This document shows positions 41,209 through 54,284 of a stretch of DNA of 64,000 bases, in pieces; position 1 is the first letter of the stretch; the number at the start of each line of letters is the position of its first letter. The stretch is from Candidatus Gastranaerophilales bacterium (GTDB lineage: Bacteria > Cyanobacteriota > Vampirovibrionia > Gastranaerophilales > Gastranaerophilaceae). A model generated the notes under the pieces. It was not told the origin of the DNA and made no database searches. It saw only the letters and a program-made list of their open reading frames with translations. The translations under genes and the position numbers were made by a program. The stretch is from positions 1 to 64,000 of the forward strand of contig CALUTP010000016.1 of assembly GCA_944323725.1 (NCBI GenBank), given 5' to 3'.

Positions 41209-41874
41209 TTATAGTCGAATCGGGTAGTCGTCAGGTATTTTCCATCCGTTACGTATTATTAGTTCTGCACAGTATCCACCACTGCCATATCTTTCTTTTT
41301 TATATTCCTCTAGGCATTTTGTTTTTAATTCTTCATTATCCATAGTTCTTACAGTTATTGATGTTGTAATCTTACAGCCATTATTGCTATTGGGGTATAT
41401 CAAAAATTTAAAGCTATCTTTACCTGCTTTTTCTGTTGATAGTTCAAGTGTGTTACTTTTTGAAAATTTTGCTTGTGGGTAAATTATAAAAATAATATAT
41501 GTCCCAGAAATTGCTTCTATCGTTAGTGCTGAACCATCTTTAAAATACAATTTATAAGCATCATTTCCATAGTCTTTTTTACTGGCAATAACATTGGGTA
41601 AAAAGTCTTTCAAATAAGTATTCCACCACTTTTCCATTATTTCTATATCTCTATGATTATTAATATCACCCCAATCCCAGTATCTACAAGCTCCATTTTT
41701 CACTTCTGACATTCTGATTGTTTGATTTATTGTCGAATATAGTTTTCAAAGTCTTGTTTCTACAACTTTTTTATTATAACCGTTTATAATGTTGGGAATT
41801 GTCATAGCTGCAACTATCCCGATTATTCCTAATGTAATCAATACTTCTGCTAAGGTAAAGGCTTGTATTTTCAT
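41209..41874 (-). pseudogene. prepilin-like gene interrupted by in-frame TGA
   Basis: From ATG 41874: MKIQAFTLAEVLITLGIIGI, VAAMTIPNIINGYNKKVVET, RL then TGA at 41748-41746 (codon 43), then KLYSTINQTIRMSEVKNGAC to the stop at 41209, all in one frame (222 codons). The start of the missing codon is where paralogues usually have a Lys/Arg, so a single substitution from AGA or TGG to TGA would explain it. The C-terminus CAELIIRNGWKIPDDYPIRL matches other prepilins here. The remaining open part (from Met 41712) lacks a signal. Readthrough or recoding cannot be excluded but TGA is used as stop elsewhere. Confidence 0.8.
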
Positions 41875-41903
41875 AGTTATTCCCTCATTTTAGTTAATAA
41901 ATT

Positions 41904-41972: not shown

Positions 41973-42200
41973 ATGCAGAAAGATGAATTTTTACAGGAGC
42001 TTGGGTTTGCCATAAAAATGAATAGAATGAGGCAGAAAATTTCTCAGGAAAAGCTTGCAGAAATGTGTGATTGCAGTCTTTCTTACATAGGCTTTATCGA
42101 ACGTGGAGAAAAAGGAATTTCCTTATATAACTTTCTAAAAATAGCATCTGCACTAAATTTAGACCTTGTAGAATTTCTAAAGGATTTCAAAAACCCATGA
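41973..42200 (+). CDS. small XRE-family regulator
   Basis: 75 aa, one HTH domain (QKISQEKLAEMCDCSLSYIG, FIERGEKGISLYNFLKIASA) close to the 69-aa protein at 11669. It is divergent from the interrupted prepilin gene, 98 bases apart. Probable repressor of itself and the prepilin. It is intact although its neighbour is broken. Confidence 0.85.
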   Translation: MQKDEFLQELGFAIKMNRMRQKISQEKLAEMCDCSLSYIGFIERGEKGISLYNFLKIASALNLDLVEFLKDFKNP

Positions 42201-42270
42201 AAACATGGCGCTTTATACATGGCGATTGAAATGGCGTCTTTTATTATTTTTTAAATAGGTTATACTCATA

Positions 42271-42345
42271 AATGTAAACGGTTAAGGCTCAAACCCTTTA
42301 GGATGGTAAAGCTGTTTGCCGAGACTTCACGGGAGAAATGTGTAG
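42271..42345 (+). other. possible structured leader upstream of phage-like cluster
   Basis: About 75 bases contain AAACGGTTAAGGCTCAAACC, then CTTTAGGATGGTAAAGCTG and TTTGCCGAGAC, with a short CTTTA/TAAAG pairing. The arrangement CAAACC-loop-GGA...AAAGC faintly recalls c-di-GMP-I riboswitches, but the match is weak. It directly precedes the first gene. A TATACT box lies at 42261-42266. Confidence 0.2.
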
Positions 42346-42732
42346 ATGGGATATATACATTGCTGTGGTGGACTTCATAAGACTAAATCTTATAAGGTCA
42401 TTCCACAGGGAGATTTTGTGCTGTGTGAATTAGATTATTTAAAAAAATGTCCAGTATGTGGTCATACTGTTGTGCAACTTACTAGAGTTGATAAAAATGA
42501 TAATATTTCCGTCGTTAGAAAATCTAATTCAAAGGCTGTTAGTTTTTTTGATAAAATGAAGAAATTTATTCTTTATGAAAAAATTCCCCAAACTTATAAA
42601 AAATGCGGGAAATTTTATCTTAATTACAATGAGTATGGTGTGAAAAAAAGATGTTATTCAAATCTTAGTACATTAAAAATAGGTCTATGTGAAAGTAAAT
42701 CTCTAAATAATAATAATATACAATCCTTTTAA
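42346..42732 (+). CDS. zinc-binding-like protein at the start of the phage-like cluster
   Basis: 128 aa. HCCGGLH near the N-terminus, then CPVCGHTVVQ at about 36, and basic C-terminal half (FILYEKIPQTYKKCGK). GGAG lies ten bases upstream. No family is recognised; similar Cys/His proteins occur in temperate phage genomes, so it may be a small phage zinc protein. Confidence 0.55.
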   Translation: MGYIHCCGGLHKTKSYKVIPQGDFVLCELDYLKKCPVCGHTVVQLTRVDKNDNISVVRKSNSKAVSFFDKMKKFILYEKIPQTYKKCGKFYLNYNEYGVKKRCYSNLSTLKIGLCESKSLNNNNIQSF

Positions 42733-42869
42733 ATTATCTTACTCTCTTAACGGGATGAAATTGTTTCATCCCTTTTATTTTAAAAAGGAAATATTATTAA
42801 AATAAAAATTTTTGATTAATGTAATATTAAATTTGAAATAACCAGATACCAGTTTTAAGGGAATTAAGG

Positions 42870-43079
42870 ATGAAATTAACACCAAAGGAGACGGCTGTTA
42901 TAACTTTGGTTGCATCGGGGTATTCTGATAAAGAAATTGGGGTAATATTAAAAATTTCTTATGGTACCGTCAGGGATTATATAGATAAAGTCGTTCTGAA
43001 ACTTCAGGCCAGAAACAGAACCCATGCAGCAATTTTATACGCTAAAACAAATGAAGAGTGGCTTTTAACAATTGAATAG
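42870..43079 (+). CDS. LuxR-type helix-turn-helix protein (phage-like)
   Basis: 69 aa, only the GerE/LuxR DNA-binding domain: LTPKETAVITLVASGYSDKE, IGVILKISYGTVRDYIDKVV, LKLQARNRTHAAILYA. No sensor domain. It sits just upstream of the amidase and structural genes and may regulate late genes. Confidence 0.75.
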   Translation: MKLTPKETAVITLVASGYSDKEIGVILKISYGTVRDYIDKVVLKLQARNRTHAAILYAKTNEEWLLTIE

Positions 43080-43093
43080 ATGATTGGAGCTTT

Positions 43094-43591
43094 ATGAAGA
43101 AAATAATTTTACACTGGACAGCAGGATTTTATTATCCTACTGCCTATGAAAAGAATTATTACCATTTTTTAGTAGATAAGGATGGAACTGTTCATGATGG
43201 TATTTATAAACCAGAAGATAATTTGAATTGTAATGATGGTAGGTATGCACCCCATACTGGTGGCGGGAATACTGGAGCAATTGGGCTCGCTATGTGTGCT
43301 ATGGCTGGGTTTAAATCTAGCTCATGCGTTGGAGATTACCCTATTACAAAAAAACAATTTGAGGCTTCAATGAAATTATGTGCGGAATTATCAATAAAAT
43401 ACAAGATTCCTATAGCTCAAGAATCCATTATGACTCATTATGAATTCGGGGTAAAACATCCTTCAAGTTCAAGTGCAGGGAAAATTGATATTATTTATTT
43501 GCCACCATATCCTTGGGTCGAAAAAAATGACATTGGGGCTTTTATCCGCTCGAAAATAAAATGGTACAAGTTGAAGATACAAGGAGAATAA
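43094..43591 (+). CDS. N-acetylmuramoyl-L-alanine amidase (endolysin-like)
   Basis: 165 aa. Zinc amidase_2/PGRP fold: IILHWTAG (first His), YAPHTGGGNTGAIGLAM (second His region), TKKQFEASMKLC and THYEFGVKHP with KIDIIYLPPYPW. No signal peptide, as in phage endolysins that depend on a holin. It cuts the amide bond between muramic acid and the stem peptide. 14 bases after the HTH gene. Confidence 0.82.
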   Translation: MKKIILHWTAGFYYPTAYEKNYYHFLVDKDGTVHDGIYKPEDNLNCNDGRYAPHTGGGNTGAIGLAMCAMAGFKSSSCVGDYPITKKQFEASMKLCAELSIKYKIPIAQESIMTHYEFGVKHPSSSSAGKIDIIYLPPYPWVEKNDIGAFIRSKIKWYKLKIQGE

Positions 43592-43594
43592 TTT

Positions 43595-45115
43595 ATGGAA
43601 ATTGCTTATTATGACCTTTCTGGCGGGATAAATCAGGCTTTGACAAAAACTGAGCTCGGACTTGACACTAAAAAAATTTACTGGGCTGATGCTGAAAATA
43701 TTGAAATTCTACAAAATCGTGGAATTATAAAACAAAAAGGTAATACAGAATTTTTGAGTCTACCTGAAGAAGAAAAAATCACTGGACTTTGTGAGATGAA
43801 AAAGGGGAATGTATATAACCTTGTTATTACTACTATATCTGGTAAAATTTATATATATACACCACAAAGTGATCATTTGAAAGAATTGTCAAAAAAAATA
43901 AGTGGTGAACATCCTGTTTTTGCTAATTTTCTTGATGGTGTTTTAATTTCAAGCAAATCAGATAGTTTATTTTATATTAAAAATAATACGAATTTTGATG
44001 TAGTAGATTGTGGACTTAAGGATTCTCAAAATAATCCTGTATATTCTGATGTTATTAGTATTTATAATGGTAGAGTCTGGGTAGCTGATGGTGCTAAAAT
44101 TTATTATTCAGCACTTGGAACTTATGATGATTTTGAAACAGAAGATGATGCTGGGTATATTAATAATTTTCATACCAATACTGATTCAATTACAGCTTTA
44201 AAACCATATAAAGAGTATCTTGCAATTTATAAGAAAAATTCAGTTTATTTACTCACCGGGATAAGTCAGGCAGATTTTGCGATAATTCCTTTTGCTGATA
44301 AAGGAGCTTATTCTACAAGGAGTATTGTAAACGTAGAAAATAAACAATATTTTTTGTCTAATGGTATTTACGCTTTAGAACAATCCGGAGAATTAAATCA
44401 AATTCAGCTAGGTTCTGAAATTTCTAGAAAAATAAAACCTGAATTTGATAATTTTAATACTGTTGCAATGCAGTATGCAATAAGTATTCATTATGAAACT
44501 TTAAATCAAGTTTGGTATTTTATACCTTATACAGATAATGAGTTTTTTAAAATTATATGGATTAATGATTATATTAATAAAGCTTGGTATAAAAGAGTAG
44601 TTCCACAAAATATCACAACTGCCTGCTTATTTAATGATTATGTTTTGACTGCTGATAGTCAGGGTAAAATTTACCGAGAAAATTATGGTACAACATTTGC
44701 TGGAGAACCTGTTAAATTTTTATGGAAATCTCCATTTCTTGCTTTAAATTCTGCACATCATAGAAAATTGATTGATGAATTTTATTTTATTTTAGATCAG
44801 GCCTATGATAATCATTTCGATTTTTCTGTATATAAAGATTATGATAGTGAAAATAGTGATGATTGTGAAAAGATTTATTCACTTCATTTAGAGCATTTAA
44901 TATGGGCAGATGATAATACTTCAGATAATCTGCCCTGTCATTGGGCGCTCGATGATGAGCCTGTCCCAATATGGCCGATAAGTACGGATACACTTGAAAA
45001 AGCTGAAATATCTGATGCAAATTATTCTGTTCAATTATGTGTGGAAGGTCAAGAAAAAGATAATTATTGTGCGATAATCGGTCTTCAATTTAGAGAGATA
45101 TACAATGATGACTAA
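43595..45115 (+). CDS. P22 gp10-like head-completion/tail-hub protein
   Basis: 506 aa. Beta-rich, with YYSALGTYDDFETEDDAGYI and repeated Y/G/N-rich strands (GKIYIYTPQSDH, NGRVWVADGAKI) resembling the propeller-like packaged-DNA stabilisation protein gp10 of P22-type phages. It follows the amidase by three bases. The call is by pattern and context, not by clear alignment. Confidence 0.5.
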   Translation: MEIAYYDLSGGINQALTKTELGLDTKKIYWADAENIEILQNRGIIKQKGNTEFLSLPEEEKITGLCEMKKGNVYNLVITTISGKIYIYTPQSDHLKELSKKISGEHPVFANFLDGVLISSKSDSLFYIKNNTNFDVVDCGLKDSQNNPVYSDVISIYNGRVWVADGAKIYYSALGTYDDFETEDDAGYINNFHTNTDSITALKPYKEYLAIYKKNSVYLLTGISQADFAIIPFADKGAYSTRSIVNVENKQYFLSNGIYALEQSGELNQIQLGSEISRKIKPEFDNFNTVAMQYAISIHYETLNQVWYFIPYTDNEFFKIIWINDYINKAWYKRVVPQNITTACLFNDYVLTADSQGKIYRENYGTTFAGEPVKFLWKSPFLALNSAHHRKLIDEFYFILDQAYDNHFDFSVYKDYDSENSDDCEKIYSLHLEHLIWADDNTSDNLPCHWALDDEPVPIWPISTDTLEKAEISDANYSVQLCVEGQEKDNYCAIIGLQFREIYNDD

Positions 45116-45184
45116 ATAATTATATTTGTCTGCACCAATCATTTATTTATACAACACATTAAATTAAAAGAGAAAGGGAAAAAA

Positions 45185-46045
45185 ATGAGCGAAAACACTA
45201 CAAACTCTTATTCAGTTTTTATTCCTGAAATTTGGAGCCAAAAGTTAAATACAATGCTTGCAAAAGAATGTGTAATGCTTCAGTGTGTAAACAGGAATTA
45301 TGAAGGAGAAATTAAAAATCAGGGAGATACTGTAAAAATTATTTCACCGGCAGCAGTTACTGTTTCTACACTTGGTTCTGGTAATATTACATACTCAGAG
45401 CTTGAACCTACTTCTATGGATTTGGTTATTGATCAAAAGAAATTCTTTGCATTTAAAATTAATGATGTAGCACAAGTTCAGGCTAATACTGATATTATGG
45501 AAGCTCATCTTGAAAATGCTAAAAATGCAATTGAAGAAGTTCAGGATAGTTATCTTCTGGGAATGCACTCTAATGTTACATCAGCGAATACTGTCGGGTC
45601 AGATTCTGCACCAGTAGCACTTGACAAGACTACTATATATGAACAATTTGTAAAATTAGCATTATGTCTAAAAAATTCAAATGCTGTTACTTCTACTAAG
45701 CGCCCTTGGGTTGTAATTAATCCTACTATTGAATCTTATTTGCTTCAAAGTACCGAATTTATTGGAGCTCATAATGTTGCTGATGAAACTTTGCGTGAGG
45801 GTGCTATAGGAAGAATTGCAGGCATGGATGTTTTGGTCAGTACAAATTTAACAGATACTGATAGTAAATACTATGTGTTAGCTGGTACAAATGATGCAAT
45901 CACTTTTGCTTCTCAGTTAGCTAAAATTGAAAGCTTAAGGGATAAAGACAGTTTTTCAGATTTGATTAGAGGCTTATATCTATACGGAGCTAAAACTGTT
46001 CAGCCAAATGCTCTTGCTAAATTGGTTGTTAAAAAACCTTCATAG
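45185..46045 (+). CDS. phage major capsid protein (P22/HK97-like)
   Basis: 286 aa. N-terminus IPEIWSQKLNTMLAKECVML, GDTVKIISPAAVTVS, E-loop-like stretch and a C-terminal IAGMDVLVSTNL...LIRGLYLYGAKTV, which are typical of P22-family coat proteins. Immediately after the gp10-like gene and before a terminator, which suits a highly expressed coat gene. Confidence 0.8.
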   Translation: MSENTTNSYSVFIPEIWSQKLNTMLAKECVMLQCVNRNYEGEIKNQGDTVKIISPAAVTVSTLGSGNITYSELEPTSMDLVIDQKKFFAFKINDVAQVQANTDIMEAHLENAKNAIEEVQDSYLLGMHSNVTSANTVGSDSAPVALDKTTIYEQFVKLALCLKNSNAVTSTKRPWVVINPTIESYLLQSTEFIGAHNVADETLREGAIGRIAGMDVLVSTNLTDTDSKYYVLAGTNDAITFASQLAKIESLRDKDSFSDLIRGLYLYGAKTVQPNALAKLVVKKPS

Positions 46046-46058
46046 TATTTAACCCCTG

Positions 46059-46101
46059 AAAAGTACCTTTATTCCAATTTTAGTGTCTAAAGGTACTTTT
46101 A
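46059..46101 (+). terminator. terminator after the capsid gene
   Basis: A long stem, AAAAGTACCTTT with AAAGGTACTTTT, is followed by T-rich sequence. A partial stop here would adjust coat to scaffold ratios. Confidence 0.75.
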
Positions 46102-46135
46102 TTAAAAAGTTCACCTGAACTAAGAAAGGAACTAA

Positions 46136-46396
46136 ATGTTAGGCAGTTTAAAAGAGAAAATAAAACAGCTTGCACAAAGTGCTGTAGCTATTGCAGAAAA
46201 AGCTCTTGGTTCTTCTGCAGGCAAAGCTAAAAAGCAAATGGCTGTTGAATATGTTGTATCACATCTTCCGGTACCATCAATATTCAAGGGGTTTATTGCT
46301 GCTATACTTTCTAATTTTATAGACGAAGCAATAGAATTTGCTGTTGTATATATGAACTCACTGGAAGAGAAAAATACAGGAGAAATTTATGGATAA
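46136..46396 (+). CDS. small helical phage protein, possibly holin-like
   Basis: 86 aa. A Lys/Ala-rich helix then KKQMAVEYVVSHLP and FIDEAIEFAVVYMNS, a little like LLH-type holins, but no clear long membrane segment is present (FKGFIAAILSNFI is weak). It overlaps the next gene by 8 bases. Function unsure. Confidence 0.4.
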   Translation: MLGSLKEKIKQLAQSAVAIAEKALGSSAGKAKKQMAVEYVVSHLPVPSIFKGFIAAILSNFIDEAIEFAVVYMNSLEEKNTGEIYG

Positions 46397-47063
46397 AGAA
46401 GAAGAAATAAAAAGAGTATTATCAGCAGGTAACGAGTCTTTGGCCGATAATCCTCAAGTACAGAATGCTCAGCAGTCACCGACTCCAAATGGAGGAAACT
46501 TAATGCAAAATCAGCAACATGATGTAAAGAGTATTGCCGAAAAGGATATTTTAGCTATCCAAAACCTTGTTGCAACAGGGAAAATCGACAGTACGCAAGG
46601 ACAATATTTAGTAAACTATGTGATGAATAAGGCGTATGACATGGTTAAAAATAATAACCAGAATGCTGATAATGTATCTGTACCAACAAATGGAATCAGA
46701 GATTTTGAAATTGAGCATCAAGGATTTTTTAATCGTGATGGTAGAGCAGATGTGCTTAATTACTTAAAAAATTCTAACTATACACTGGATAAAGACGAAG
46801 TTTCCAAAATATCTCAGTTGATTGAAAAAATAGAACAATCAGCTATTGAAAGATATTTAAAACAATCAGCACACGAAAAAACATTAAATGACGAAAATGA
46901 AATGGCAAAGTTGAGATTGAAAGCTAATGCTCAAAATCCGGCTTTTGGTGATACACAGACAAGGGTTTTCACTCGTGAGCAAATCGGCAAAATGAGCGGT
47001 GCAGAATTTGCTAAATATGAAAAAGCTATAATGGAACAATTAAGAAAAGGTCTTATCCGTTAA
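46389..47063 (+). CDS. phage scaffold-like protein
   Basis: 224 aa, Gln/Asn-rich N-terminus, long helices and a C-terminus with RVFTREQIGKMSGAEFAKYE then LRKGLIR, the sort of tail seen in capsid assembly/scaffolding proteins. It sits right after the capsid gene, where scaffold often lies but usually before it. Assignment is by pattern. Confidence 0.5.
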   Translation: MDKEEEIKRVLSAGNESLADNPQVQNAQQSPTPNGGNLMQNQQHDVKSIAEKDILAIQNLVATGKIDSTQGQYLVNYVMNKAYDMVKNNNQNADNVSVPTNGIRDFEIEHQGFFNRDGRADVLNYLKNSNYTLDKDEVSKISQLIEKIEQSAIERYLKQSAHEKTLNDENEMAKLRLKANAQNPAFGDTQTRVFTREQIGKMSGAEFAKYEKAIMEQLRKGLIR

Positions 47064-47132
47064 TTTGGCAAATTAATTACAATACGGTGGGTAAATCTGC
47101 CGTATTGTAATTTAATACTACAAGGAGATAAA

Positions 47133-47771
47133 ATGAATTACTTTGAAATAATTAATAAATGTCTAGCTGAATTAAACTATAAACAGGTAAATGATTTTAA
47201 TGAGCTCACAAAAAATGATCATAAAAAGATAAAAAATATTATTAATACTATAAATACAGAGGTCTGTGCTTCTGAAAAATGGAATTTCCTTTTGAGAAAG
47301 ACAAACATTGAACTTCAGGGGAATACCTCAGAAATTACAAATCCTGTAAATGGTAAAATTGCGTTTTTATCTATAGATGGTAAAAAGTTTAAGTATATTG
47401 ATGATTTTGAAAAGTTTTTTACTAATTCTCAACCTCAAAATACATATACTTCTTTTAATGATAAATTGCTTTTTCCAATGTTTGATGAGTCTAAAAATAT
47501 AGAAATCATCTACTATACATCTGACTGTGCTGTAGATGAAGAAGGAAGTGAAAAAGCTATATTAGAAAATTCCACCGATAAAACGCTAATTCCTGAAGCA
47601 TTTGCTGAACCTATACTTGTATATGGCACATGTATGCGCTTAAAAGGTAACCCTCAACATATAAGGTTTAATTACTGGTATAGCATGTATAAAGATGCCC
47701 TTGCTAATTTGCGTTCTAAGCTTTCAATAGATGCAGATTCTTCACCGGGAGTAAAGCTTTATAGATTATAG
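47133..47771 (+). CDS. phage head-tail adaptor (P22 gp4-like)
   Basis: 212 aa. KWNFLLRKTNIELQGNTSEI and YGTCMRLKGNPQHIRFNYWY resemble portal-associated adaptor proteins of podoviruses. AAGGAG upstream. It closes the first block, followed by a hairpin at 47780. Confidence 0.5.
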   Translation: MNYFEIINKCLAELNYKQVNDFNELTKNDHKKIKNIINTINTEVCASEKWNFLLRKTNIELQGNTSEITNPVNGKIAFLSIDGKKFKYIDDFEKFFTNSQPQNTYTSFNDKLLFPMFDESKNIEIIYYTSDCAVDEEGSEKAILENSTDKTLIPEAFAEPILVYGTCMRLKGNPQHIRFNYWYSMYKDALANLRSKLSIDADSSPGVKLYRL

Positions 47772-47779
47772 AGCATAAA

Positions 47780-47812
47780 AAAAACAGGAAGTTTTCATTC
47801 CCCCCTGTTAAG
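47780..47812. terminator. hairpin between adaptor and small-terminase genes
   Basis: AACAGG...CCTGTT with extra G/C pairs is flanked by an A-run on the left only, so it would be a proper terminator on the minus strand; on plus it is only a hairpin. It is in a 135-base gap before the terminase gene. Confidence 0.35.
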
Positions 47813-47906
47813 ATTTACACTAGCCGAAATATAAATAGCATGTTTATTATAACACATTTTTTGAAAAACACAAAATTATGATAAGAAATGTTAAAATTAC
47901 GAAACA

Positions 47907-48341
47907 ATGAAATATTTAACCCCTCAACATAAAAAATTTATAACTGAATATATAAAAACTGTGAATGGCGAATTATCAGCCCAACTCGCAGGATATAAGA
48001 CAAAGAATTTGAAAGAGATTTCACAAAAACTGCTTTCTGATGAAAATATTGTCAAAGAAATAAAATCAAGATTGAAAGAGCAAATAAATTCTCTTCAAGT
48101 ACAAAAAGGTTATGTTATCCAGAAACTTTTGCAAATAGCGGAATTTTCTCTTGAAGAAGAAGATATATTGGATAAAGACGGGAATTATACTGGGAAAAAG
48201 AAACTCAGAGATACAAGTGCGGGATTGAAAGCTTTAGAAAGTCTTTGCAAATATCTCGGGTTTAATAATTCTATAGAAGCTGAAGGATACAAACCCGCAA
48301 AAATTATCACTATATCTAATCTTGATAAAAATAAAATTTGA
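47907..48341 (+). CDS. phage terminase small subunit
   Basis: 144 aa. KYLTPQHKKFITEYIKTVNG, then AQLAGYKT and ISQKLLSDENIVKEIKSRLK match the DNA-recognition and oligomerisation parts of Terminase_2 family small subunits. It selects DNA for packaging. The large subunit is at 50900. Confidence 0.75.
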   Translation: MKYLTPQHKKFITEYIKTVNGELSAQLAGYKTKNLKEISQKLLSDENIVKEIKSRLKEQINSLQVQKGYVIQKLLQIAEFSLEEEDILDKDGNYTGKKKLRDTSAGLKALESLCKYLGFNNSIEAEGYKPAKIITISNLDKNKI

Positions 48342-48356
48342 AAACAAGGAGAGATA

Positions 48357-48722
48357 ATGAAAAACAAAGATGAAATTGAACAAATATTAATTAGTGAAAC
48401 TTCTATAGATGAGCTGATTAAAAGGAAAATTGAAGAAGAATTCAAAACAGAATTTGAGCAATCAAAAATACTTCCATTAACAAAAATAGAAACAAATATT
48501 GCAAATGTTCCAAAATCTCTTATTTTTTCGAAACAGTCTGTATATAAATTATTTAATCGAAATACAAAAACTCAGACTTATATAAATGGTATTCAAGCAG
48601 AAGCCCTAATTGGAATGCAAAATAGTATACGCGAAAAAATGTTAAATGGTGAACAAAGTACATTTACTACTGATGATGCTTATGTAAAATTTGAAAGAAT
48701 AACTTTAAATGTGCAGGATTAA
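48357..48722 (+). CDS. hypothetical phage protein
   Basis: 121 aa, charged and helical (KNKDEIEQILISETSIDELI), no known domain. AGGAG upstream. It overlaps the acetyltransferase gene by 14 bases, in the packaging cluster. Confidence 0.55.
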   Translation: MKNKDEIEQILISETSIDELIKRKIEEEFKTEFEQSKILPLTKIETNIANVPKSLIFSKQSVYKLFNRNTKTQTYINGIQAEALIGMQNSIREKMLNGEQSTFTTDDAYVKFERITLNVQD

Positions 48723-49236
48723 AAGAGTATTTATAAACAGAGAAAAAGGAGTTTTTGAAAATTGTAAGTACCTTCCAGAGATAATGTTTTTATACTTACG
48801 ATATTCAAAATATTTAGAAGATGATTTTACAGATCATAAAACTTCTTTTTTAGCGTATTTTACGGATTTAGTTGAGAGACTGAGTCCTTTTTTCTGGGCG
48901 GTTGTCGATGAAAATGATTTACTTGCTGGGTTTATTTACCTAGAAAATTTTACAGGTATAAAAGGCAGGCTTTATTCAGCGGAGATAACGACTTGTTTTA
49001 ATCAAAAATACTGGGGACATTTTACATATCTTACAGGTTTAATATTTCTTGACTATGCACAGAATATTCTAGGACTCAAAAAATTAAAAGCAGTTATATA
49101 TAAAGAAAATTTTCGGGTAAAAACTCTGCTTAAGAAATTGGGTTTTGAAAAAGAAGCTCTGCATAGGTCGGAAACTATCAAAAATAACAAGCCTCAGGAT
49201 ATTGAAGAATGGGGATTTATAAGTGAAAGGATCTAA
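48709..49236 (+). CDS. GNAT-family acetyltransferase
   Basis: 175 aa. Structure follows the GNAT fold: AVVDENDLLAGFIYLEN, SAEITTCFNQKYWGHF with IFLDYAQNI, then VIYKENFRVKTLLKKLGFEK. It may use acetyl-CoA to modify a protein or small molecule. It sits between the terminase small subunit and portal genes; some phages carry such enzymes to alter host polymerase or ribosomal proteins, but the target is unknown. Confidence 0.72.
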   Translation: MCRIKRVFINREKGVFENCKYLPEIMFLYLRYSKYLEDDFTDHKTSFLAYFTDLVERLSPFFWAVVDENDLLAGFIYLENFTGIKGRLYSAEITTCFNQKYWGHFTYLTGLIFLDYAQNILGLKKLKAVIYKENFRVKTLLKKLGFEKEALHRSETIKNNKPQDIEEWGFISERI

Positions 49237-49241
49237 AAATT

Positions 49242-50900
49242 ATGAAAATCGAAAATGAAGATTTAACGCAAAACATAAGACCAGAAGAAGAAATCCTTCT
49301 GGTATCTGGGATTTGTGAAAAGTATGATAAATATGAATCCCGCAGGACACAGCAGCTTAGTGATATAAAAGCAATAAGAAATGCCATTTATAACTCTGAT
49401 ACACCGCATTTGCACGGATGGAATAGTAAAATAAACCTTCCAGATATTTACGAACTTGCGCAAACTTTGAAATCTCACCTTTCTGAAAATTTATATTCTC
49501 ATCCAGATGCGATGTTTGATGTCTCAGGAACTACTCCTGAGACTCAGAGTTATGCAAATAAGCAAAAAGCAATGCTTGTAAATACTTTTGAACAGATGAA
49601 TATAGAAAATGAATTAGAAAAAGTTATTGACAGCATTGTAGAAACTGGAGAATGTACTTTGTTTGTAGGCTGGGAGACTGCAATAAAACAGGTACGCAGA
49701 GCAAAAACATTTGAAGAACAACTAAGGTTAATAGATAGTAAAAACTTTGTAGTAGAAGATAAAGTCATATATGACAATGCCAAAATAAAGTTTATTAAAC
49801 CTGAGGATTTCGTATTTGACAAAACTAATAAAGAGAATTGGGATAAATGTGCAAAAATATACAGAACATATTCGACTTTAGATGAAATTTTCTGTGATAA
49901 ATCAAATAACTTATTAACAGAAGAAAAACTGGAAAATTTGAAAGGGGTGGTGGCCAAGAAAAAACAATATGGAAGTAATGATGTTCCAGAGGAAAACAGA
50001 ATTGAGATATTAGAATTCTGGGGTGATATAGAACTAGCAAACGGAAATGTTTTAAAAAATAGATTGGTTACAGTTGCAGGCAGACGGGAAATTATAAGAA
50101 TGGAAGCAAATCCTTTTGTTATTAATCCGTTCATCCATGCAAATATTATAGAATCTCCAGATACTGGAAGAGGTATATCTCCTCTTAGAGTAGCTTTAGT
50201 GTTAAACGATATTTCATCAACTATTTTAAATAAACAAATAGATGCGCTTGCTTTAATGATGAATCCTCCATATCTCGCGCCAAAAGGATGCTTCAAGGGT
50301 GAGCAGGAAGTTCGGCCTGGAAAAATTATCGAATACGATGCAGCATTAATGCCGACCGCTCCTTCCCCTTTAAGCTTTGATAAAGCAATGATGGGATGGG
50401 ATTTCTTGAATTATTTTAAAAGTACTATTGAAAGTGCAACTGGAATTTTTAAAAATATGGCAGGAAATATTCAATCAGCGGAACGTACAGCTACAGAGTT
50501 AAACTATTCAGTGAGCGGTCAGGAGGCAAGATTAAATATGATGCTAGATGCTGTATATAGAAAAGTTATTATCCCTATGGTTGAAAAAACTGCCGAGATA
50601 ATTTCAAATTTTAAACTTGGTGAAGAATTAATAAGGATGAACGACCGAGGGAAAGTTAAATTTATAGCAATTGATGATAGTGTAAGAAATGCTAATTATA
50701 TATACAGATATGGTGATAGGAAAGCTACTTTTGAACGAAAAAGTAAATTAAAAGAACTATTTGAAGTTGTACAGTCTTTTGCTAATGTTCCTGAAGTTGA
50801 AGAAAAAATAGACTGGTTGGAATGTTTTAAATTCGCACTTGAACAATACGGGATAGAAAACGCAAATAACTTTTTGTTGAATGGAACAACTGAAAAATAA
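49242..50900 (+). CDS. phage portal protein
   Basis: 552 aa. SRRTQQLSDIKAIRNAIYNS and WNSKINLPDIYELAQTLKSH at the N-terminus, PDTGRGISPLRVALVLNDIS and ATGIFKNMAGNIQSAERTAT later, consistent with a podovirus portal ring. It docks the terminase to the head. The stop overlaps the start of the large terminase by one base (TAATG). Confidence 0.75.
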   Translation: MKIENEDLTQNIRPEEEILLVSGICEKYDKYESRRTQQLSDIKAIRNAIYNSDTPHLHGWNSKINLPDIYELAQTLKSHLSENLYSHPDAMFDVSGTTPETQSYANKQKAMLVNTFEQMNIENELEKVIDSIVETGECTLFVGWETAIKQVRRAKTFEEQLRLIDSKNFVVEDKVIYDNAKIKFIKPEDFVFDKTNKENWDKCAKIYRTYSTLDEIFCDKSNNLLTEEKLENLKGVVAKKKQYGSNDVPEENRIEILEFWGDIELANGNVLKNRLVTVAGRREIIRMEANPFVINPFIHANIIESPDTGRGISPLRVALVLNDISSTILNKQIDALALMMNPPYLAPKGCFKGEQEVRPGKIIEYDAALMPTAPSPLSFDKAMMGWDFLNYFKSTIESATGIFKNMAGNIQSAERTATELNYSVSGQEARLNMMLDAVYRKVIIPMVEKTAEIISNFKLGEELIRMNDRGKVKFIAIDDSVRNANYIYRYGDRKATFERKSKLKELFEVVQSFANVPEVEEKIDWLECFKFALEQYGIENANNFLLNGTTEK

Positions 50901-52189
50901 TGGAATATAAGTTATTAAAAGCACAAAGGGAATTTTTAGAAATTCCGCATAACTATAGTCTAGATGTTGCAGTATATCAAGGAGGATATGGGTCTGGAAA
51001 AACATTTTCAGGCTCACTTCTTGGAATACTGCTGGCGCTTAAGTATCCAGGGATTAGAGGATTAGTTGGTGCTCAGACATATACTCTAGTAAGAGATACC
51101 ACTCTCCAATCGTATTTTGAACATCTTGAAAATATTAACTTTATAGAAGGTAGTGATTTTGAATGGTCAAGTTCTCTCCAAAAACTTATATTTAAAAACG
51201 GTTCAGAAATATTATTTAAACATTTTGATGAGCCTAATAAACTTAAATCTCTAAATCTTGGATTTGTCGAAATTGAAGAGATGTCTGATATTCCATATGA
51301 TACATTCAAAGTACTTCTATCTAGGATGCGTCAGCGTCGTAAAAAAGATTGGAAGGATTTTACTTATCGGATTTTTGGACATACAAACCCAGAAATGCAG
51401 CGGGGATGGGTATATAAAACATTTGTTGAGAATCCTGCACCCAATTATAGAATTATTTCTGCGCCTACGACAGAAAATATTTACTTACCTGAAGGTTTTT
51501 GTGATGAACTTAAAAAGATTTATGATGAGCAATATTACAGAATATTTGTACTTGCCCAAAACGGGGAATATAATAATGGACTTGTAATAAAAGATTTTAC
51601 AGATGAAAACATTAAAGATATAAAATATCAACCTGAAATGGATTTACATATTTCTTGTGATTTTAATGTAGATCCAATGTGCTGGGTTTTTGCTCATAAA
51701 ACCGATGATAAAGTCTTTTATTTTGATGAAATTGCAATGGAAAATACTACGACTGCAAGGGCTTGTGATGAGTTTTGCAGAAGATACCCATCGCATAAGG
51801 GACGAATTATCATTAATGGGGACGCCTCAGGTGATAATAGAAGTTGCACAAGTGAATATACAAATTATGTAATAATAAAGAAAAAACTTTTACAATTTGG
51901 TTATGATGTAGAAATTCAGATAAAAGCCTATAATCCTCCTATTAAAAATAGGATTATGGCGTTTAATTCAAAAGTTAGAAATGCTGATGGAGAAATTTGT
52001 TTATATGTAGATAAAAAGTGTGAAAAACTTCTATATAATATTTACAATTTAAAATACAAAGAAGGTACTTCAAGAATTGATATACCTACATATCAGCAGA
52101 TAAAACAGACTAAAGAGTTAAAATTTTTATCACATCCTATGGATGCAGCATCATATCTTGTAGATTTTTATTGGCCAATAACTTTGTAA
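50900..52189 (+). CDS. phage terminase large subunit
   Basis: 429 aa. Walker A GGYGSGKTFSG (about residues 28-38), Walker B-like FVEIEEMSDI, then DFNVDPMCW and GDASGDNRS for the RNase H-type nuclease, and HPMDAASYLVDFYW at the end (second Asp). It pumps DNA into the capsid with ATP and cuts it. Translationally coupled to the portal gene. Confidence 0.9.
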   Translation: MEYKLLKAQREFLEIPHNYSLDVAVYQGGYGSGKTFSGSLLGILLALKYPGIRGLVGAQTYTLVRDTTLQSYFEHLENINFIEGSDFEWSSSLQKLIFKNGSEILFKHFDEPNKLKSLNLGFVEIEEMSDIPYDTFKVLLSRMRQRRKKDWKDFTYRIFGHTNPEMQRGWVYKTFVENPAPNYRIISAPTTENIYLPEGFCDELKKIYDEQYYRIFVLAQNGEYNNGLVIKDFTDENIKDIKYQPEMDLHISCDFNVDPMCWVFAHKTDDKVFYFDEIAMENTTTARACDEFCRRYPSHKGRIIINGDASGDNRSCTSEYTNYVIIKKKLLQFGYDVEIQIKAYNPPIKNRIMAFNSKVRNADGEICLYVDKKCEKLLYNIYNLKYKEGTSRIDIPTYQQIKQTKELKFLSHPMDAASYLVDFYWPITL

Positions 52190-52202
52190 AAAAGAGGGAA
52201 TA

Positions 52203-52436
52203 ATGGAACAGATTATACAATATTCACCAATTCTTATTGCAGTAATGATTTTTCTTATACAACAAAGAATAGTTGTTACTCCGGAGCAATTGGAGAAAAA
52301 ACACAGAGAAATAATAGAAGATGTAGAAGAACGTTTTGTGACTATTAATAGTCATAAAGATTTGAAAGAACAGTTTGGAGAAATAAAAGAAAAAATTGAT
52401 AGAATATATGACTGTGTAATCCAAAATAATATGTAA
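52203..52436 (+). CDS. small membrane/coiled-coil phage protein
   Basis: 77 aa. An N-terminal membrane segment (SPILIAVMIFLIQQR) and a charged coiled coil (KKHREIIEDVEERFVTINSH, LKEQFGEIKEKIDRIYDC), like XhlA or spanin-type accessory lysis proteins. It follows terL by 13 bases and is the last clear phage-like gene. Confidence 0.5.
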   Translation: MEQIIQYSPILIAVMIFLIQQRIVVTPEQLEKKHREIIEDVEERFVTINSHKDLKEQFGEIKEKIDRIYDCVIQNNM

Positions 52437-52550: not shown

Positions 52551-54284
52551 ATGGGATTGGCAGCATCACAAGCAAGATTTTTAGCCATAACATCCAGAAA
52601 AGCTCGCTGTGAATTTGAGTCAATGCAAATAGCACAGCAAAAGCTTTCATTGTCACGCGAACTAGAACAGGCTACTGCTGATTATCAGGCAAGTCTTAAT
52701 CAATCTAATCTGATTTGGGATCCTGACGGTTCAGGGGAAACTCCATTTGATGTTACTTATGATTTATTAATGCGTCCTACTGATGTAAATGATTATATGC
52801 CATATCTAATTTCAAGAAGGGATGGTAGAATTGCATTGAATTCATCTATGGCAAAAGCCGCAAAAGCTGCGGGAATTAATGAAGATGGTACTATAAATGG
52901 TACTAAACAAGAGGTTTATATGGCATTTTTGGATGCTATGGTTGCTACAGGTGGTATGTCAGAAACTGCAGCTCGTTCAGCAAAAGCAATAGGGTTGAAT
53001 GAAACTGCAGGATTAGGCGGAGCTTTACTTGATAAGACTACTGCTACTGAGATGACTCTTGGAAATATGATTAACTATATTGATTTAAAAGCAAATATTA
53101 ATGAAACATATGCAACAGATGAAGAAAAAGCAGTTGCAGATGCATTGAATATAACAATAGGAAAAGTAAGTGATGGTGCTATAGAATTAAAAAGTGATCT
53201 AAGTGCTACATCCAATTACTTGTTAATTAATGGTACAAAACAAGAAAATGCAAATCAAGAAGTTAACTTCACATTATCAGATTTATTAACAGAAGATGTA
53301 ACATTTGCATTTACTTCAGAAAAAAATAGCACATCATTCTGGAAGAAAGTTGTAGCTGCAGTAGGAGCAGTGCTTTCTGGAACGGTATTATTTGGTGGCT
53401 ATAATGGTTTACTAAATCTCTTAGGTGTAGATAAAGGTGGATATAGCGATATGACACCTCAAGAACGCCAGTTATTAGAAATTTTAGATGGTATGTTCTC
53501 TGGTTTTGAAGCTATTTTGGATACAAGCCAGAGTGATATAGATGTTACTGCCTTCAATTATGCAATTCAAGAAACATTAGGTTTACTAGGAAATACTCAA
53601 GATTTAGGCAGTAGAAATCATTCAAATGATGCGTTTAATGATGCTATAAACCAAGCAAATAATTACAATGGTTTTGTTACAAAAGCAGCATCTAAAAATA
53701 AAAACTTTGGGACAACAGCAATAAGTATTTCCAATTTAGCAGAATCGTTCTTAACATTCTATGCTCAAGCTAAAGGTGGTTTTGATGGTAATTATTATAT
53801 CAGACAGGATGGTCAAAAGTCATCATATGTAACAGATGACCAAGGGTACTATTATAGAATTAAGAATGGTGATGATGGTACAAGTCAGCAGATGTTTGAA
53901 GCTGAGTTCTATAGCATAATGTTTAATAACATATTAGAAAACGGCTGGTATAATAATCTCTACATTGATGATAAGGAATACCTTGATAATGCCCTTAAAA
54001 ATGGTCAATTATTTATTACATCTATAAATCAAGATGGCTATTTCTATCAGGATAGATATAATGCAAATGGTTACATCATGGAAGATACTGATGATGATGC
54101 TATAGCTCGGGCAGAAAGAGAATTTTCAGTAGCCAAATTAAAAATAGAAGCGAAAGAAGAACAATTAGACCTTGATATGAAAGAACTCGATTTAGAAATT
54201 TCATCGCTAACTACTGAATATGATACAGTTAAGAGCTTGATTAACAAAAATGTAGAAAAAACATTCACTATGTTCCAAGGATAA
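52551..54284 (+). CDS. large protein with helical ends and a variable centre, unknown
   Basis: 577 aa. The N-terminal 45 residues (MGLAASQARFLAITSRKARC, EFESMQIAQQKLSLSRELEQ) and the last 60 (REFSVAKLKIEAKEEQLDLD, SSLTTEYDTVKSLINKNVEK) form amphipathic helices. Between is an Asn/Thr/Gly-rich domain with a hydrophobic stretch (VVAAVGAVLSGTVLFGG). No signal peptide. It resembles a surface or secreted structural protein with a helical bundle at the ends. AAAGGA is 13 bases upstream, rather far. It is separated from the phage genes by 115 bases and may not belong to them. Confidence 0.5.
   Translation: MGLAASQARFLAITSRKARCEFESMQIAQQKLSLSRELEQATADYQASLNQSNLIWDPDGSGETPFDVTYDLLMRPTDVNDYMPYLISRRDGRIALNSSMAKAAKAAGINEDGTINGTKQEVYMAFLDAMVATGGMSETAARSAKAIGLNETAGLGGALLDKTTATEMTLGNMINYIDLKANINETYATDEEKAVADALNITIGKVSDGAIELKSDLSATSNYLLINGTKQENANQEVNFTLSDLLTEDVTFAFTSEKNSTSFWKKVVAAVGAVLSGTVLFGGYNGLLNLLGVDKGGYSDMTPQERQLLEILDGMFSGFEAILDTSQSDIDVTAFNYAIQETLGLLGNTQDLGSRNHSNDAFNDAINQANNYNGFVTKAASKNKNFGTTAISISNLAESFLTFYAQAKGGFDGNYYIRQDGQKSSYVTDDQGYYYRIKNGDDGTSQQMFEAEFYSIMFNNILENGWYNNLYIDDKEYLDNALKNGQLFITSINQDGYFYQDRYNANGYIMEDTDDDAIARAEREFSVAKLKIEAKEEQLDLDMKELDLEISSLTTEYDTVKSLINKNVEKTFTMFQG

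Follow-up and report, generated by a model that had tools for sequence, protein, structure and literature searches.

A podovirus-type, gene transfer agent-like cluster, very probably domesticated, and candidate scaffold-tagged effectors in gut Gastranaerophilales

The 64,000-nucleotide stretch of Candidatus Gastranaerophilales bacterium analysed here (the window; positions 1 to 64,000 of contig CALUTP010000016.1, assembly GCA_944323725.1) carries at 42346..52436, on the + strand only, a cluster of phage-type genes that is very probably domesticated, i.e. inherited vertically and kept by strong purifying selection. Its gene content points to a new podovirus-type element, resembling a gene transfer agent (GTA), in uncultured gut Gastranaerophilales; no report of a GTA-like element in Gastranaerophilales was found in the literature searched, and reports of podovirus-type GTAs go back no further than 2026. 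The explanation that we favour as a whole, and consider probable, is that of a GTA-like, domesticated podovirus cluster with possible loading of effectors. The case for domestication is strong; that for effector loading is plausible and coherent, being clearest in relatives and slight in the window genome.

The gene set is intact and complete, comprising an amidase, a P22/T7-type tail nozzle, the major capsid protein (MCP), a holin, a scaffold, a head-tail adaptor, both terminase subunits (small, TerS; large, TerL) and the portal (Table 1). All the genes named in an original prediction, made from the same sequence, are present where expected, on one strand as it had stated and with family support; its list lacked the holin-like, LuxR-type, XRE-type and GNAT genes and the 77-residue protein at the end of the cluster. 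It had also remarked on the lack of integrase, replication and fibre genes, none of which we recognised among the open reading frames (ORFs) of the cluster.

We consider the cluster domesticated because its genes are intact, occur at about one copy per genome, give a host-like tree and evolve under purifying selection, with no integrase among the ORFs and no bracketing repeat among those listed. TerL relatives occur in 13/13 genomes of the genus and in 35 of 59 relatives, with the reading frame open in nearly all, and portal relatives in 183 of the 382 genomes of the class, nearly always as a single copy and mostly in an all-or-none manner per genus. The gene order is identical in 34 of the 46 loci that span amidase to TerL, 25 of which share a radical-SAM gene upstream; the lengths of the cluster proteins are nearly invariant, and none of the genes is broken. 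Distances of every cluster gene follow those of InfB plus RpoB (Mantel r 0.67-0.94), and where its nodes are strongly supported, a tree of seven cluster proteins matches that of the host, its deep nodes being unresolved. Ratios of nonsynonymous to synonymous substitution (dN/dS) are mostly 0.01-0.2, near those of InfB and RpoB, with a few small genes higher in single pairs. In genus g9 the portal lies on another contig than TerL, MCP and nozzle, as expected for host-owned genes, within the limit that contig breaks set on this point. The cluster shares several features with GTAs: structural and packaging genes of phage origin, unaccompanied by genes for replication or integration, vertical inheritance, and intact genes under selection. 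What defines a GTA beyond these is the packing of mostly random host DNA, in preference to its own locus, and the delivery of that DNA to recipient cells. For a domesticated system the original prediction had looked to the presence of the cluster in relatives, at the same place and under purifying selection, and these observations agree with it.

RcGTA forms a siphovirus-like tailed particle, and its transfer of host DNA is proven; by the genes seen here, the window cluster is presumably unrelated to it. The likeness is one of evolutionary behaviour, in that alphaproteobacterial GTAs of the RcGTA type show mostly vertical inheritance over a large clade and slow evolution (PMC9765227), as does the window cluster, both lacking virus replication genes.

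Related free phages keep the classical gene order. In phage-size contigs of 38-40 kb (L079, L086, L088) it runs TerS-TerL-portal-MCP-adaptor-nozzle-GNAT, of which the window order, nozzle-MCP-scaffold-adaptor-TerS-portal-TerL, is a near-reverse; the reversal described in the original prediction is not a perfect mirror, because in this genus the MCP precedes the adaptor. The order in sister genera g45 and g52, nozzle-adaptor-GNAT-MCP-scaffold-TerS-portal-TerL, does mirror that of the free phages for the core genes. The original prediction had named this order in a complete free phage genome as a refutation; none was found, and isolated phages match only at <60% identity. Judged by its position after the nozzle in L079, L086 and L088, the GNAT gene is phage-derived. 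A second TerL type, 55-59% related, is present in L209 (G012:C6) and in viral contigs L052-L078 (39-48 kb), which are probably true phages of these hosts.

Effector loading concerns the end of the scaffold. Its final ~33 residues (46956-47057), better conserved than any other part of the protein, form a motif that is found again elsewhere and that we call the tag. The C-terminal end of the scaffold is homologous to the end of scaffold-position genes in related phages, and the tag likewise ends such genes in other families; on scaffolds it lies at the C-terminal end, within 1 residue in 84 of 97. Among the collected loci the tag is also carried by 61 distinct non-scaffold ORFs, of which a few (e.g. 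in L170 and L219) may be scaffolds and some are fragments; class counts of tagged ORFs are not unbiased, since part of the loci were chosen for their tag. The domains on tagged proteins include DUF6973, lipase_3/Mbeg1, GH108 (muramidase), M15, PBECR1 and LPD3-like, the variable ones (PBECR1, LPD3-like and other centres) being joined to one N-terminal module or to the tag. Of 73 small ORFs lying <=400 bp from tagged genes, 58 have a segment of membrane or signal type, versus 17.7% of same-size ORFs; the count used a crude hydropathy window across related, non-independent loci, for which reasons its p-value overstates the certainty. At least one non-scaffold tag was present in 24 of 29 cluster genomes, versus 2 of 8 genomes without the cluster; class-wide, two or more tag matches occur in at least 99 of the 183 genomes with a portal, and any at all in 18 of the 199 without, the latter mostly of genus g6. 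A Fisher value for this contrast set tag-positive cluster genomes against all portal-negative genomes, which are unlike sets, and is given no weight here. The capsid operon itself contains, or is flanked by, some of the tagged genes (e.g. L157, L180, L046, L319). The pairing of wall- and membrane-acting domains with envelope proteins suggests antibacterial effectors, and the tagged proteins with their neighbours suggest effector-immunity pairs loaded into the capsid via the scaffold tag. In P22 the scaffold's contact with coat protein is its C-terminal helix-turn-helix, and proteins fused to this part are packaged (PMC9962691); cargo would here likewise be carried on the scaffold's C-terminal capsid-binding part, in a natural use of what in P22 has been engineered. 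By this analogy, the tag would carry enzymes into the procapsid; we lean slightly towards scaffold-tagged effector loading.

The window genome has one non-scaffold tagged protein, of 331 residues, on another contig (L395:3368-4363, G000:C12); its tag is near the N terminus, it has no known domain, and its gene overlaps an ORF for a membrane protein.

Like the tagged proteins, a structured leader RNA ahead of the cluster's first gene is an addition that the original prediction had not led us to expect. The leader, of ~58 nt, folds into three short helices, which show covariation (59 double-change cells versus 22.7 in shuffles, 0/500), the structure having been drawn from the same alignment as was used in the count. 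Across 41 genomes the leader model matched confidently once in each positive genome, at the cluster, and not in any genome without a portal; a laxer search gave a few weak matches (E 0.004-0.07), which we treated as chance. Against Rfam there was no match at E<=1 (no riboswitch or other known family). Extra copies stand 5' of operons that look effector-like: in 5 of 6 genomes of genus g17 a second strong copy precedes an operon for a secreted and a lipase-like protein, and in G346 and G261 a copy precedes one encoding a secreted protein and a tagged M15 peptidase-like protein. In 42 of 46 loci the gene immediately 5' of the amidase encodes a LuxR-type protein; this gene and the leader, both conserved, are candidates for host control.

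In the course of events that we propose, an ancestor of gut Gastranaerophilales would have domesticated a short-tailed (podovirus) phage, the head, portal, nozzle, packaging and lysis genes of which would have passed to chromosomal inheritance and been selected for the host, as in GTAs. On a signal acting through the leader RNA and the LuxR-type protein, a few cells would assemble particles using the scaffold, the terminase would pack DNA, and holin and amidase would lyse the producer cells. In many relatives, copies of the scaffold C terminus may carry proteins into the procapsid via the scaffold's capsid-binding site; these would bring wall-, membrane- or RNA-attacking domains, with adjacent membrane or secreted proteins that resemble immunity proteins, and the particle may deliver such toxins to neighbours along with, or in place of, DNA. 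Whether the cluster transfers host DNA we judge to be evenly balanced. The more specific proposal, that the domesticated capsid is a delivery particle for toxins (perhaps DNA), with scaffold-end-loaded effectors, paired envelope immunity and co-regulation through the shared leader RNA, is held tentatively, as falling just short of an even chance.

Several observations weigh against this explanation. Particles, packaged DNA, transfer and toxicity stand as predictions from sequence, and in the cluster we recognised neither a fibre gene nor one for receptor binding. TerS has the whole Terminase_2 domain, which may mean that packaging is sequence-specific. In genus g17 the cluster lacks matches to the nozzle, holin and GNAT genes, and a search of the rest of those genomes did not find a nozzle. 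The leader was not found in the cluster-bearing genera g8, g10, g13 and g14. Tagged proteins and portals are not always found together, g6 having tagged proteins without a portal match and the cluster genera g24 and g44 having portals without a tag match. The window genome's tagged protein is single and domain-less, and the interdependence of the loci and the crude predictor detract from the neighbour count.

The complete packaging set, with its conserved TerL motifs, would also suit a plain podovirus-type GTA that packs random host DNA only and whose tagged enzymes are ejection or lysis proteins; the muramidase, M15 and lipase domains likewise fit envelope penetration or lysis, and a podovirus-type GTA of comparable size, FpGTA, is known from the gut bacterium Faecalibacterium (PMC12946183). 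FpGTA, a ~10 kb operon of terminase, portal, scaffold, capsid and short-tail genes without replication genes, is near-ubiquitous in its genus, has its lysis genes in a second operon and a TerS without an obvious DNA-binding domain, and its particles and packaged DNA have been shown (PMC12946183). By this description the window cluster is alike in being a gut-bacterial, genus-wide podovirus-type operon with lysis genes present and replication genes absent, whereas it belongs to another phylum, has a full TerS Terminase_2 domain, lysis genes inside the operon, a near-mirror order, a leader RNA and scaffold-tagged proteins, and is known here from genes alone. We nevertheless think a plain GTA rather unlikely, given that the PBECR1 nuclease and LPD3 domains, the several effector families per genome and the paired membrane or secreted neighbours look like effectors with immunity, and that polyvalent and MuF proteins with such domains have been described as delivered effectors. 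The nearest precedent is that of the MuF toxins of temperate phages, in which toxin domains stand on a virion-associated protein and a small neighbouring ORF likely confers immunity (PMC5576092); the tagged proteins resemble them in both respects, but gave no Pfam match to a MuF domain among those scanned, and have the scaffold end as address and a domesticated cluster, not a temperate phage, as carrier. Polyvalent proteins injected from phage heads carry PBECR1 and LPD3 domains (PMC5512222), which here are joined to scaffold-like ends in a host genome without the rest of the phage.

It would be a different objection that the tag is not a capsid address, but a general small helical motif of the lineage on proteins exported otherwise. 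That tags occur in g6 and a few other genomes lacking a portal match (those 18 of 199) is in line with this, as is a YxRxDGTxVxGYYR motif that tagged proteins share and scaffolds lack. We regard it as improbable, in that the tag is the scaffold's best conserved part and recurs in phage scaffolds of other families, some tagged genes lie in or beside the capsid operon, and the leader RNA of the cluster is found with two tagged M15 genes as well.

That the cluster is a phage satellite, or a prophage that is fixed or decaying, is very improbable, for although the genes are phage-derived, and related real phages and the diverged second TerL in G012 show that these bacteria are infected by such viruses or take them up by integration, the cluster has no broken genes, no integrase and, among the repeats listed, no bracketing one, is under purifying selection with a host-like tree, and is present genus-wide. 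The original prediction had offered a satellite and a decayed prophage beside a domesticated head-and-packaging system; sequence comparison strongly supports the last. The satellite (PICI-like, i.e. resembling a phage-inducible chromosomal island) was rejected on the complete capsid set, the lack of integration and replication genes and the presence of about one copy per genome, and the decayed prophage on the intact, selected genes, the host-like tree, the lack of an integrase among the ORFs and the lack of a bracketing attachment (att) repeat among the repeats listed. Host genes do border both sides, as had been said: a radical-SAM gene on one and a glycosyltransferase/DUF475/prfA/infB block on the other. 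In G013, which lacks the cluster, the radical-SAM gene is followed by other host genes; this is not a clean excision, since the downstream flank is absent within the 20 kb read, and it differs from the clean empty site with direct repeats that the original prediction had set against domestication.

Gastranaerophilales are little cultured, and a conserved particle would thus offer a mechanism of gene flow or of competition in the animal gut that can be tested directly. If the tag loads effectors, phage capsids would be a further host-owned vehicle for toxins beside type VI secretion systems (T6SS), contact-dependent inhibition (CDI) and contractile injection systems, and the scaffold tag would be a short, portable address sequence. 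There is also a consequence for virus catalogues, in that some of the entries given as viruses in IMG/VR are chromosomal clusters of this kind; contigs L031, L037, L046, L047 and others are the chromosomal cluster, some with host flanking genes.

Table 1. Features of the cluster and its upstream edge in the window
Feature	Position	Strand	Basis and remarks
XRE-type helix-turn-helix gene	41973..42200	+	Sequence reading; matched in 7/70 loci, close relatives only
Structured leader RNA, upstream of first cluster gene	42268..42325	+	R1 model match E 1.4e-11
Zinc-ribbon-like protein (znf)	42346..42732	+	Cys motifs; Pfam match sub-threshold; most relatives have znf
LuxR-type helix-turn-helix protein, 69 aa, candidate regulator	42870..43079	+	Sequence reading
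N-acetylmuramoyl-L-alanine amidase (endolysin)	43094..43591	+	Amidase_2 E 6e-14; phrog_5867 E 3e-31
Tail nozzle, P22 gp10 / T7 gp12 type	43595..45115	+	phrog_3287 E 2e-15; AlphaFold2 predicted template modelling score (pTM) 0.78
Major capsid protein (MCP)	45185..46045	+	Phage_capsid_4 E 7e-9; phrog_267 E 3e-54; PDB 8e16 gp6 E 1e-33
Holin-like protein	46136..46396	+	phrog_6918 E 1e-8; Phage_holin_6_1 E 5e-5 (just under cut-off)
Scaffolding protein (inferred)	46389..47063	+	Adjoins MCP; AlphaFold2 model all-helical, C terminus helical and ordered
Head-tail adaptor (T7 gp11 / P22 gp4 type)	47133..47771	+	phrog_6013 E 3e-5; phrog_394 E 2e-4
Terminase small subunit (TerS)	47907..48341	+	Terminase_2 PF03592 E 1e-16, profile 1-130 of 141, near full-length
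Conserved protein (gene g9)	48357..48722	+	Relative between MCP and adaptor in some phage contigs
GNAT acetyltransferase	48709..49236	+	Acetyltransf_3 E 1e-9
Portal protein	49242..50900	+	SU10_portal E 5e-23; phrog_332 E 2e-36; PDB 9k09 portal E 9e-21
Terminase large subunit (TerL)	50900..52189	+	Terminase_3 E 1e-22
77-aa protein, one membrane segment and coiled coil, last cluster gene	52203..52436	+	Relatives in 150 loci

The nozzle product is predicted to fold like the P22 gp10, Sf6 gp8 and T7 gp12 nozzles. In Foldseek its AlphaFold2 model matched P22 gp10 (E 2e-13), the Pa223 tail (2e-17) and the T7 tail (9e-9), the best PDB matches being podovirus tails, including P22 gp10, Sf6 gp8, SU10 and T7 (gp12). 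The scaffold model gave no fold-search match at E<=0.001, PDB profile searches with nozzle and with scaffold returned nothing useful, and the adaptor's PDB match to tail tubular protein A was very weak. TerL keeps its ATPase motifs (GGyGSGKT, EIEE) and three acidic nuclease motifs in the aligned genomes. Membership of the XRE-type gene is doubtful, because it is kept in close relatives only, and a 577-residue 'MGLA' gene (52551-54284) was rejected as a member, having ~12 relatives across the same genome.

Some further observations concern tagged proteins and the flank. The YxRxDGTxVxGYYR motif stands C-terminally, after the tag (e.g. L396, L408). In G017 and ~12 other g6 genomes with tags and no portal, loss of the cluster or another carrier are alternatives; in L409 a tagged gene lies downstream of several genes for secreted proteins. 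The unnamed domain of the tagged protein on G000:C12 is also found by itself, in short ORFs near the portal in L172/L323, and in L171, L172, L316 and L323 (genus g9) runs of small ORFs and tagged proteins surround the portal, resembling arrays of toxin cassettes. Adjoining the cluster in the window is a prepilin-like gene on the - strand (41209-41880), which is broken by an in-frame stop.

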